Source of the DNA: Citricoccus sp. SGAir0253
GTDB taxonomy: Bacteria; Actinomycetota; Actinomycetes; Actinomycetales; Micrococcaceae
Assembly (NCBI RefSeq): GCF_005877055.1
Contig: NZ_CP039424.1
Location: 682,001-746,000, forward strand
Length of the DNA stretch: 64,000 nt
Direction of reading: 5' to 3'
Part shown: positions 17,813 to 41,729 of the stretch, piece by piece
Numbering within the stretch: position 1 is the stretch's first letter
Layout of the letters: the number at the start of each line of letters is the position of its first letter
Position numbers and translations under genes: made by a program
Notes under the pieces: generated by a model
Seen by the model: only the letters and a program-made list of their open reading frames with translations
Told to the model about the DNA's origin: nothing
The model's database searches: none

Positions 17813-17905
17813 CCCACCCCTCGGCAACTGGCGGTCGATTCCGCCCCGGAACGGCGTGCCGAGGGGCCCGATCCGGGGCGGAATCGACCGCCAGATGAGG
17901 GTGGG
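17813..17905 (+). repeat. Structured palindromic repeat, copy 1 (GGCAA-bulge hairpin)
   Basis: A perfect 23-bp inverted repeat (17828-17850 with 17872-17894) encloses a 21-nt loop. Outside it an outer stem pairs CCCACCCCTC (17813-17822) with GAGGGTGGG (17897-17905), leaving GGCAA unpaired on the left side. The arm core is GGTCGATTCCGCCCCGG. A second copy with the same arm length, loop length and GGCAA bulge is at 19825-19908. The two copies differ by compensating base changes. It lies 10 nt after the Sir2 stop. It may act as a terminator, a REP-like element or a mobile palindrome. Confidence 0.85.
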
Positions 17906-17977
17906 AGGTGCCGGGTACGGGCGGGCCGGCCCCGGGGGCGCTGGCGCCGGGGCCCCGGCTGCGGGAGAGTGGCCGTC

Positions 17978-19817
17978 ATGGCCCTCACCCCCGCCCCCGG
18001 CTTCACGACGCGCCCCACCCTGCGGGGCTCCTTCGGGATGGCGGCCTCCACGCACTGGCTGGCCACCGCCACCGCGCAGTCGGTCCTCGAGCGCGGGGGC
18101 AACGCCTTCGACGCCGCCACGGCCGCCGCCTTCGTGCTGCACGTGGTCGAGCCGCACCTCAACGGCCCCGGGGGCGACCTCGTGGGCCTCTTCGCCACGG
18201 CCGGGGAGCCCGGACGCCCGGTGGTGCTGATGGGCCAGGGCCCGGCCCCCGCCGGCGCCTCGCCGGCGCGCTTCCGCGCCGAGGGCCTCGAGCTGGTGCC
18301 GGGCTCCGGGGCGCTGGCGGCCGCGGTCCCGGGGGCGGTGGACGCCTGGCTGGTCCTGCTGCGGGACCACGGCACGTGGGAGCTGGAGGCGGTCCTCGCG
18401 TACGCGGTCCACTACGCGCGCCACGGCCACGAGGCGGGGGAGCGGGTCGCCGCGACCATCGCCACCGTGCGGGACCTCTTCGCCGTGCACTGGCCCACCT
18501 CGGCCGCCCTGTGGATGCCGCACGGGCGGCCGCCGCGGCCGGGGGAGCGGATCGTCAACACCGCCTACGCCGCGGTGCTGGACCGGCTCGTCGCGCAGGG
18601 CCGGGGCCGCCCGGGCCGGTCGGCGCGCATCGAGGCGGCCCGCGCCGCGTGGCGCACCGGCTTCGTGGCGGAGGCCGTCGTGGCGTTCGCCGCCCGGCCG
18701 CACCACCACGCCACCGGGCACTCCACCGGTGACGCCGCGGGCCGCTCCGCCGGTCACCTCCCGGGCAGCGTCCACGCCGGGGTGATCTCCCGGGAGGACC
18801 TCGCCGGCTTCGAGGCGGGCTACGAGCCGGCGGTGACGGTGGAGTTCCGCGGCCACACGATCGCCAAGTCCGGACCGTGGGGCCAGGGGCCGGTCCTGCT
18901 GCAGGCACTGCGCCTCCTGGACGGGCTCGACGACGACCGGCTCGACCCCTCGACCGGCCGGGGCGCCCACGCCGTCCTCGAGGCCGAGAAGCTCGCGCTG
19001 GCCGACCGCGAGGCCTACTACGGCGACGGCGACGTCCCGCTGGCCACGCTGCTGTCCGCGCCGTACGCCGAGCGCCGCCGCGCCCTGCTCGGCGAGGTGG
19101 CCTCGCGCGAGTTCCGCCCCGGCCGGATCGACGGCGTCCCGGCCTTCGTCCCGCCCCTGCGCCGCGCGGGGGACGTCCCGGCGGGCCCCGGCGGGACCGG
19201 CGAGCCCACGGTCTCGCCCGGGGGCCGCACGCGCGGGGACACGTGCCACCTCGACGTCGTGGACCGCTGGGGGAACATGATCGCGGTGACGCCCTCCGGG
19301 GGATGGCTGCAGTCCTCCCCGGCGATCCCCGGGCTCGGGTTCTGCCTCGGCACGCGCCTGCAGATGACCTGGCTCGAGCCGGGCTCGCCCTCGACGCTGG
19401 TCCCCGGGGCGCGCCCGCGCACCACGCTCTCGCCGACCCTCGTCCTGCGCGGGGCCATCCGGTCGCGGCCCTGGGCTCGCCCGGCGGTGACCAGCAGGAC
19501 CAGTGGCAGCTGCCCTACCTGCTGCGCACGATCGTCGGCGGGTACGAGCCGCAGCAGGCGGTCGACGCGCCCACCTTCCACACGACCTCGGTCCCGGAGT
19601 CGTTCTGGCCACGCACGTGGACGCCCGGCGGGGCCGTGGCCGAGTCGCGGCTCGGGGACGAGGTCCTCGACGAGTTGGAGCGGCGCGGGCACCGGCTGAC
19701 CCGGACCGGGCCGTGGTCGCTGGGCCGGCTGTGCGTGGTGACGCGGGATCCGCGCACCGGCGCCCTCGGGGCCGCCGCCACCCCCGCGGTGGCCAGGGCT
19801 ACGCCGCCGGGCGCTGA
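17978..19817 (+). pseudogene. Gamma-glutamyltransferase family gene with two frameshifts
   Basis: The frame from ATG 17978 (GGGAGAG site) encodes a gamma-glutamyltranspeptidase-like Ntn-hydrolase. It has the N-terminal MAASTHWLATATAQSVLERGGNAFDAA pattern and the processing/catalytic threonine in GDTCHLDVVD (Thr422). At the G-run 19451-19454 the reading frame breaks, and the correct continuation (GHPVAALGSPGGDQQDQWQ) is in the -1-base frame. It breaks again at the C-run 19781-19785, after which the family-typical ending NPRGGQGYAAGR-like is restored with a TGA at 19815-19817. One missing G and one missing C would give a normal protein of about 613 residues. Both breaks are homopolymer contractions, so sequencing error or recent inactivation are both possible. 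Confidence 0.85.
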
Positions 19818-19824
19818 GCCGGCC

Positions 19825-19908
19825 CCCCATGGCAACGGGCGGTCGATTCCGCCCCGGAACGGCGCCCCGGGGGGACGGATCCGGGGCGGAATCGACCGCC
19901 CGATGGGG
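19825..19908 (+). repeat. Structured palindromic repeat, copy 2 (GGCAA-bulge hairpin)
   Basis: The perfect 23-bp inverted repeat is 19836-19858 with 19880-19902, with a 21-nt loop beginning ACGGCG as in copy 1. The outer stem CCCCAT (19825-19830) pairs with ATGGGG (19903-19908), again leaving GGCAA unpaired on the left. It lies between the convergent stops of the gamma-glutamyltransferase gene and purM, where it could serve as a bidirectional terminator. Confidence 0.85.
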
Positions 19909-27485: not shown

Positions 27486-27546
27486 GCTCCCGGGTCGCGA
27501 ACCACGGGTGTGGATCACGTTCATCCGCGGTTCACGACCCGGGAGC
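27486..27546. repeat. 61-bp palindromic repeat, copy A
   Basis: 18-bp arms (27486-27503 and 27529-27546) with a single mismatch flank a 25-nt loop containing GGGTGT. The left arm reads GCTCCCGGGTCGCGAACC. A second copy with identical arm and loop lengths is at 28701-28761, on the other side of the nuclease gene. Copy A lies between convergent purC and nuclease stops. Confidence 0.8.
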
Positions 27547-27578: not shown

Positions 27579-28580
27579 TCAACGGCCGTGGGACGCCATG
27601 CGCTCGCGGACCAGGCGGACGACCCGGCGGAAACCGTTCCGCAGGTCGGCGCCCGTGACCTTGATGACGAGCCACCCGTGCACCTGGAACCAGGCGTCGC
27701 GGTAGGCGTCCAGCTCCTGTTGGCGCGCATCCCGGTGGTGATGCCCCTCGTACTGGAGGGCGATCCGCCACGGCACCAGCCCCAGGTCGGCCCGCGGCGA
27801 GGAGGGGTCGTCCGGGTCGGCCGGTACCTGCAGTCCGGGTTCGGGGAGCCCCGCGTCGACCAGGGCCAGCCGCAGCCGGGTCTCCGGCGGCGAGTCCGCG
27901 CCCACGCGCACCAGGTCCAGGGCCTCCCGGGCGGCGACGATCCCGCGGAATCGGCCGGCGCGGTGCAGCGCCGCCCGGACCTCCGTGACGGTGGTGAGGG
28001 GATCCGTCCGCCCCTCTCCCCTCACCCAGGGGTGCCGGACGAGGTGGTCCCCGGCGACGACCAGGTCGTCCCGGTCGAGACGGGGCCACAGGGCGGCGAG
28101 GTCCAGCCACGTGCGGGCGGCGCTCGTCACGCGCAGGCCCAGCCGCGAGGTGACGTCGGCGTCCGGCACGGCTCGGCGGTGGGCGACGACGCCCTCCCGG
28201 CGGATGCGGGATCCATCGTGGGGGACCGAGAGATGGAGCGACCCCGGGCCGGCGGGCGACCGGCCGGCCGGCGACGCGGTGAGGCCTCGCGGAAGCGGCA
28301 CCCGGTAGAGGTGGGCCGCCGACAGGTGCGACACCACCGCATCGGGGCGGAGGCGCAGGAGGGCCCGAACGTCCTGCGGTGAGAGGCCGTGACCGGGATC
28401 CTCCAGCCCGCAGGCCTGCCAGGACGGGCCGGAGGGGCCGGCCCCCCGATAGAGCCCGTGGGAGAACCGCTGCACGTCGCGGGCGTTGGTGCGGGCGAGG
28501 CCGAGGCCCGCGGCGCGGAGCTCGGCGGTGGAGAAGGACTGGCCTTCGAGGTGCGGGGGCAGGGGCCGACGGGCGATCAT
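27579..28580 (-). CDS. Predicted PD-(D/E)XK endonuclease-like protein (DUF559/AbiEi-like)
   Basis: A 333-residue protein. The N-terminal 100 residues contain a helix-rich DNA-binding-like region and the LRPDAVVSHLSAAHLYRVPLP patch common to actinobacterial AbiEi-like proteins. The C-terminal third fits a PD-(D/E)XK/Vsr-like core with Glu233 (PPETRLRL), Asp265 (PRADLGL) and Glu278 (ALQYEGHHH), then a late Trp-Leu-Val strand (HGWLVIKV). It could be an orphan nuclease or a defence or toxin-antitoxin relic; no partner gene is adjacent. It is flanked on both sides by copies of a 61-bp palindrome. ATG 28580 is preferred (GACGCT-N6); GTG 28595 is an alternative. Confidence 0.72.
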   Translation of the reverse strand: MIARRPLPPHLEGQSFSTAELRAAGLGLARTNARDVQRFSHGLYRGAGPSGPSWQACGLEDPGHGLSPQDVRALLRLRPDAVVSHLSAAHLYRVPLPRGLTASPAGRSPAGPGSLHLSVPHDGSRIRREGVVAHRRAVPDADVTSRLGLRVTSAARTWLDLAALWPRLDRDDLVVAGDHLVRHPWVRGEGRTDPLTTVTEVRAALHRAGRFRGIVAAREALDLVRVGADSPPETRLRLALVDAGLPEPGLQVPADPDDPSSPRADLGLVPWRIALQYEGHHHRDARQQELDAYRDAWFQVHGWLVIKVTGADLRNGFRRVVRLVRERMASHGR

Positions 28581-28700
28581 CCCCCCAGCGTCCACGGATC
28601 ATGGCCGGGCGGCGCGGTCAGCGGTGGTGCACGTGGCCGGCCCGCCCGGGGAGGGCCGCTGTGGAGCGGGTCCGCCGAGCACCGCCCGGCCCCGCCCGCT

Positions 28701-28761
28701 GCTCCCGGGTCACGGACCGAGGGTGTTGGCCGCTCGAACCCATGGTTTGTGACCCGGGAGC
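28701..28761. repeat. 61-bp palindromic repeat, copy B
   Basis: Arms 28701-28718 and 28744-28761 pair with two mismatches around a 25-nt loop that carries GGGTGT at the same position as copy A. The outer eleven bases of each arm (GCTCCCGGGTC) are identical to copy A. It lies between the nuclease gene and the ABC exporter operon. Confidence 0.8.
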
Positions 28762-28818
28762 ACGACGCACGGGCGGGGCGGCCACGGGTGACCCGGGACC
28801 ACGACGCACGGGCGGGGC
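28750..28818. repeat. Two 30-bp direct repeats extending from palindrome copy B
   Basis: A 30-bp stretch at 28750-28779 (TGACCCGGGAGCACGACGCA and ten more bases) recurs at 28789-28818 with one mismatch. The unit begins inside the right arm of the 61-bp palindrome, so half of the element has been duplicated next to the ABC exporter stop codon. Confidence 0.75.
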
Positions 28819-41663: not shown

Positions 41664-41729
41664 GGACCGCACGCGAGAGGCCCGGGCCCCTGGAGCGATC
41701 CAGGGGCCCGGGCCTCTCGCGTGCGGTCC
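41664..41729. terminator. Perfect 30-bp hairpin between metS and acsA (bidirectional terminator)
   Basis: Arms 41664-41693 and 41700-41729 are perfectly complementary over 30 bp with a 6-nt loop (AGCGAT). The hairpin lies between convergent stops and begins 39 nt past metS and 2 nt past acsA. No other stem in the window is as long. Confidence 0.8.

Follow-up and report, generated by a model that had tools for sequence, protein, structure and literature searches.

The 64,000-nucleotide stretch of Citricoccus sp. SGAir0253 analyzed here (contig NZ_CP039424.1, positions 682,001 to 746,000; "the window" throughout) carries two copies of a long palindrome, called family A, and a gene for a nuclease joining an AbiEi-like part to a Vsr/EDxHD-like part. 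With a probability of roughly 0.62, the palindromes are short repeats partnered with nucleases of this kind, many of the genes having their own palindrome type at both ends and further, solitary copies being dispersed over the chromosome, mostly shortly after stop codons. The window nuclease gene is itself bracketed by palindromes of another type, family B:

27486..27546, no strand assigned: family-B palindrome on one side of the nuclease gene, from the hairpin scan of the window
27579..28595, minus strand: gene for an AbiEi-like plus Vsr/EDxHD-like nuclease (338 amino acids), homologue of gene A, which is bracketed by family-A palindromes
28700..28762, no strand assigned: family-B palindrome on the other side of the nuclease gene, with further copies elsewhere on the chromosome

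Gene A lies within the longest open reading frame (ORF) C1:2783738-2784790, on the minus strand, and the family-A palindromes at C1:2783657 and 2784796 bracket it. Its protein and the window nuclease are homologous (36% identical); the genome contains five genes of this nuclease family. Family B occupies at least eight listed places, one member of the window pair included. Families C and D, found beside two other nuclease genes of the genome, are dispersed over at least 18 and at least 16 listed places. The counts from the whole-genome palindrome searches are lower bounds: 40 of 65 candidates were scored for family A and 40 of 58 in the search covering families C and D. A family-C copy is also located at C1:681681-681724, about 280-320 bp before the window start, and two tandem family-D palindromes (C1:1013061-1013234) stand upstream of the nuclease gene at 1013406.

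The association is observed directly in other Micrococcaceae genera as well. Of 64 loci, 35 have palindromes scoring at least 15 within 400 bp on each side of the gene, and 43 have one on at least one side; the corresponding numbers were 0 and 2 in far flanks, and 0 and 0 in dinucleotide shuffles. These loci are the top-ranked listed places outside the genus, a non-random set in which some are mutually orthologous (65 minus the short L162; the contig-edge place G072:C7 was left out). Within the genus, 6 of 28 loci (30 less L134 and L138) reached this score on both sides and 16 on any side, with none in the controls. Because the far flanks are often coding DNA, SIR2 genes were added as a control. 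Of 80 such loci, 15 were dropped for length; 15 of the remaining 65 had a palindrome on one side and none on both. As SIR2 genes are often one-sided and never two-sided, only the both-sided signal is to be trusted.

The two palindromes of a locus resemble each other, with a median left-right similarity of 33 at one locus and of 6 between loci, and at 35 of 44 loci the best-ranked match of a palindrome is its own partner. Moreover, the palindrome type matches the gene. Protein similarity and palindrome similarity are correlated (Mantel r 0.55, with 0 of 2000 permutations as high), and the type is shared in 11 of 11 pairs of proteins above 0.75 of the self score, in 9 of 18 at 0.6-0.75, and in few below.

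In the predicted model of the window protein, residues 7-230 form an AbiEi fold and residues 235-334 a Vsr/EDxHD nuclease fold, to which the homing endonuclease I-Bth0305I is the closest solved structure. PADLOC matches AbiEi in 23 of 23 family members, and DUF559 and MTES_1575 are matched in 8 and 12 of the 23. At E 0.01, Pfam gives no match to the window protein; DUF559 misses this cut-off with 0.046. Acidic and histidine positions are conserved in alignment A2, and DNA cleavage is a predicted activity. No AbiEii-type toxin is matched by the neighbors of the window gene, which match purD, SAICAR synthetase and an ABC transporter, and the one neighbor of gene A tested is a phosphorylase, not AbiEii. 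Searched with the window protein, all 8 genomes of the genus had matching places, 33 in total. Homologues were found in 78 of 100 Micrococcaceae genomes searched and in 27 of 149 genomes of the phylum, and plasmid carriage is rare (5 of 72,556 records, with distant homologues). To our knowledge, no function is known for any AbiEi-plus-nuclease homologue.

The two family-A copies in the window are composed as follows:

17813..17905, no strand assigned: family-A palindrome copy 1 (genome C1:699833), arms 17828-17850 and 17872-17894, 21-nt loop, outer C-rich/G-rich stem
17833..17848, plus strand: left half-site of copy 1, GGTCGAWWSYGCMCCG, its start 41 nt ahead of that of its inverted partner
17874..17889, minus strand: right half-site of copy 1, from the half-site search
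19825..19908, no strand assigned: family-A palindrome copy 2 (genome C1:701841), arms 19836-19858 and 19880-19902
19841..19856, plus strand: left half-site of copy 2, from the half-site search
19882..19897, minus strand: right half-site of copy 2, from the half-site search

An earlier, sequence-only reading had described a perfect 23-bp stem and a 21-nt loop beginning ACGGCG in both copies, and the hairpin scan confirms it; the arm starts, CTGG in one copy and CGGG in the other with matching partners, and the outer stems are likewise present in the sequence. That reading had also allowed for a chance duplication, in case no further copies existed. The copies are not such a duplication: family A has 13 chromosomal copies, recovered by whole-genome and half-site searches. 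With one mismatch allowed, the half-site GGTCGAWWSYGCMCCG has 32 matches in the genome (reversed-pattern control: 2). Of these 32, 26 pair up as 13 inverted pairs, the starts of which lie exactly 41 nt apart in 13 of 13, and the loop sequence between them varies freely. In the window alone, a 17-base half-site gave 6 matches with up to 3 mismatches (1.7 expected), four of them being the two copies themselves. An unpaired GGCAA on the left and the same orientation of both copies had been taken as a polarity. This did not hold: the element ends variably read GCAA, CAT and similar, and since both ends draw on the same set of variants, the family-A element is symmetric and without polarity.

For ten of the 13 copies, the nearest called stop codon is at most 75 nt away; for two, none is called within this distance. 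The remaining copy, at C1:656289 (L016:2978-3058), is inside an ORF and is flanked by two ABC_tran matches. The strict family-A pattern, with a gap left free from 15 to 35, occurs in 3 of 395 genomes of the bacterial family, all of this genus. These are the same three genomes (this one, G005 and G007) in which gene-A orthologues were found among the 8 genus genomes, with 30 of the 33 places compared.

A further palindrome family was followed in two close species, G052 and G094, with orthologous flanks 86-98% identical. Twenty regions per genome, taken from 31 (G052) and 22 (G094) listed places, gave 41 copies, and the internal spacing is identical in all 41, with 25-45 allowed. Comparison of 13 orthologous sites shows loops that agree at six, are inverted in place at four and are unclear at three. 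The reverse identity of the inverted loops is 14, 14, 14 and 16 of 17; 7 of 387 non-orthologous pairs reach 14, and none reaches 16. In-place inversion of the loop between these close species is observed directly. The site pairs carrying inverted loops are L225/L244, L228/L252, L238/L254 and L241/L253. With respect to genes, convergent ends enclose 18 of the copies and co-directed genes 12; none is located between divergent starts, the surroundings of 11 being incompletely called. A called 3' end is found within 80 nt of 34 of the 41 copies; ORFs were called by a simple composition rule, and three copies fall inside such ORFs.

These positions bear on a possible operator role of the palindromes, in which the AbiEi-like protein would bind DNA and regulate its own gene, and the dispersed copies would be its regulon or chromosome-organizing sites without any mobility. 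According to excerpts of PMC7319586, AbiEi and Rv2827c repress their own promoters via paired 23-bp inverted repeats; the constant half-site spacing and the frequent presence of a copy on each side of the nuclease gene agree with such a role. On the contrary, the solitary copies lie behind stop codons and not at promoters, none of the 41 copies was placed between divergent starts (11 being incompletely called), one of the two palindromes flanking a gene is downstream of it, and the presence of copies varies between relatives. We consider operators an unlikely explanation.

The same proximity to gene ends, in family A and in G052/G094, is what would be expected of bidirectional terminators or stabilizers of mRNA 3' ends, spread by selection for that role with the nuclease incidental. 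The sequence-only reading had named a terminator among its options. Hairpins in both transcripts would be very stable: folding of the plus strands as RNA gives z values of -9.8 and -4.8 for the two window copies, with 0 of 200 shuffles as good. Furthermore, arm pairing in the G052/G094 family exceeds that of shuffles. Neither window copy is followed by a T-run; a purine-rich stretch is read there instead, and an Rfam search of the window gave 0 matches at the gathering score. In addition, the hairpin scan found only 11 hairpins with arms of at least 12 in 64 kb, so that most genes do without one. A terminator need not keep its loop length or half-site sequence, and such a role would leave unexplained why members of one gene family have matching palindromes on either side. 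This role is judged less likely again than that of operators.

The compensating changes between the two window copies had been read as selection on a fold. The two copies do differ where the stem demands it; across the 13 copies, on the contrary, mismatches between the arms are frequent where the sequence varies (e.g., copies 26807, 203767 and 656289). Family-A pairing amounts to 90.1% of cells versus 87.2% in shuffles, five measures of covariation are reached by 14, 17, 26, 138 and 177 of 500 shuffles, and a separate permutation gives p 0.06-0.17. In family A, compensating changes are at most a weak signal. In the 41 copies of the G052/G094 family, arm pairing lies above shuffles with p 0.00025 and 0.001. 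Strong covariation, tried as proof of a functional fold, is upheld in that family and not in family A; the argument from compensating changes to selection on the fold is not decisive, being significant in the G052/G094 family only.

For the partnership of palindromes and nucleases, we infer, as the simplest account, that the palindromes are bound, cleaved, copied and moved by the nuclease in the following manner. Two protein molecules would bind the two inverted half-sites via their AbiEi-like parts, in the way that AbiEi proteins bind paired 23-bp inverted repeats, the fixed spacing setting the geometry. The Vsr/EDxHD-like part would nick or cut the palindrome, probably as a cruciform or hairpin, after which the palindrome could invert where it stands and, on rare occasions, be copied to the end of another gene. 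The two family-A copies of the window would be solitary ones, served in trans by the gene within C1:2783738-2784790. A homing cassette offers another route: nuclease gene and two palindromes would enter cut sites together, and solitary palindromes would be the footprints left after gene loss. The closest solved fold is indeed that of a homing endonuclease, and the bracketing palindromes are similar, so recombination could delete the gene and leave one copy. Solitary copies, however, far outnumber the genes, and orthologous palindromes stay with orthologous genes across species, which makes this route the least probable of the alternatives.

Several observations weigh against the nuclease partnership itself. 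One-sided hairpins are common at ordinary gene ends, as the 15 of 65 SIR2 loci indicate; 21 of the 64 loci from other genera have no side scoring at least 15, and at 3 of 44 loci (L183, L192, L196) the palindromes on the two sides are unlike (similarity 5-7). Over all 2080 pairs, the Spearman correlation between protein and palindrome is only 0.09, so the correlation comes from close relatives and may partly reflect joint descent of gene and flanks. Outside Micrococcaceae (21 of 27 loci, five short ones and the locus of this genome being dropped), 9 of 21 loci have palindromes on any side and 2 of 21 on both sides at a score of at least 13, with 0 in far controls; at 15 or more, the numbers are 7 and 0. 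The fifth gene of this genome, 633396, has a palindrome scoring at least 14 on one side only, and no other copy of it appears at threshold among the matches listed. One family-A copy in G005 has a spacing of 42, and G001 and G004, genomes in which no gene-A orthologue was seen, also contain weaker matches resembling family A. The G052/G094 copies were found by similarity to one copy, and equal length was thereby favored. Finally, no clean insertion or target duplication was found in the flanks of 10 copies searched and at 4 sites aligned. G094 has no copy at L226 and L234, but its local sequence is changed there as well; a copy is present at L233 in all three genomes and at L229 in the two genomes aligned.

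Between the two window copies lies a bystander gene:

17969..19699, plus strand: broken gamma-glutamyltransferase (GGT) frame between the copies, Pfam match to residues 38-494, remainder in another frame

The gene had been reported as broken, and it is: up to residue 494 the match is in one frame, and beyond it in another. The frame-changed gene spans window positions 17969-19820. By the neighboring SIR2 gene, the nearest named relatives are mostly Citricoccus. At the junction between SIR2 and purM (the latter identified by Pfam), GGT and palindromes are both lacking in four relatives, and in Micrococcus terreus only the palindromes are missing, GGT being present. Given this absence in five relatives, the window copies are lineage-specific. 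Elsewhere in the window, at 41664-41729, the hairpin scan found a perfect 31-bp hairpin with the 4-nt loop GCGA.

Among known systems, the nearest is that of repetitive extragenic palindromic (REP) sequences, their paired forms (REPINs) and the REP-associated tyrosine transposases (RAYTs), together termed REPtrons. A REP-like element or non-autonomous mobile palindrome, as already suggested from the sequence, is the best-fitting description in view of the 13 dispersed copies, the placement at stop codons and the absence in five relatives; the RAYT partner looked for with it was not found. Y1_Tnp (PF01797, E <= 0.001) is found in 0 of 8 genus genomes, in a search with a control positive in 5 of 14 named genomes, and a different nuclease gene takes its place. 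Excerpts of PMC3116915 and PMC3733652 describe REP/RAYT systems with a repeat-flanked cognate enzyme gene and, in genomes with several repeat families, repeat-specific enzyme genes; in the former source, RAYTs are proposed to act on REPINs. The palindromes described here share the dispersed, extragenic, inverted half-sites (one of 13 family-A copies being inside an ORF), with fixed spacing, and an enzyme gene flanked by the same repeats, at many loci if not all. The partner differs, being AbiEi plus Vsr/EDxHD instead of an IS200/IS605-like Y1 transposase. GTAG occurs in 0 and CTAC in 1 of the 26 outer 30-nt flanks of family-A half-sites; with neither a Y1 domain in the 8 genus genomes nor a GTAG tag, membership in the RAYT systems fails. 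Copy numbers are also lower, with about 9 to 31 listed copies per family, compared to usually more than 100 for REPs (extract of PMC2817692). CGTC-tagged REPs are described in PMC3733652 as dispersed palindromic repeats without a dedicated transposase. Here, a candidate dedicated enzyme exists, and a consistent CGTC tag is absent (3 of 26 family-A half-sites, at three different offsets).

The AbiE type IV toxin-antitoxin system shares the AbiEi-like protein and sites of about 23-bp inverted repeats (same excerpts of PMC7319586); it differs by lacking the C-terminal nuclease and the genome-wide repeats, and no AbiEii-type match was found in the neighbors checked here. With the Vsr/EDxHD enzyme I-Bth0305I and with DUF559 / REase_MTES_1575, the likeness is in the predicted fold of residues 235-334, which here is attached to an AbiEi-like part and accompanied by palindromes. 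In the open-licence PMC literature, no association of palindromes with AbiEi nucleases was found. If the nucleases own their flanking palindromes, a function would be assigned to the AbiEi-plus-nuclease homologues, and a second type of dedicated enzyme, unrelated to the first, would be known for short palindromic repeats. The wealth of gene types and of palindrome types would then lend itself to work on the joint evolution of a nuclease and its DNA site. More tentatively, at slightly under even odds, this would be a widespread, hitherto undescribed class of actinobacterial genetic element, in which an AbiEi-Vsr fusion nuclease recognizes the palindrome type belonging to it, inverts it and spreads it. 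Its role would be like that of a RAYT and would have arisen independently, out of an antitoxin part and a repair/homing nuclease part. By architecture alone, the partnership would be a variant of REP/RAYT; no repeat-enzyme partnership compared here uses this type of nuclease.
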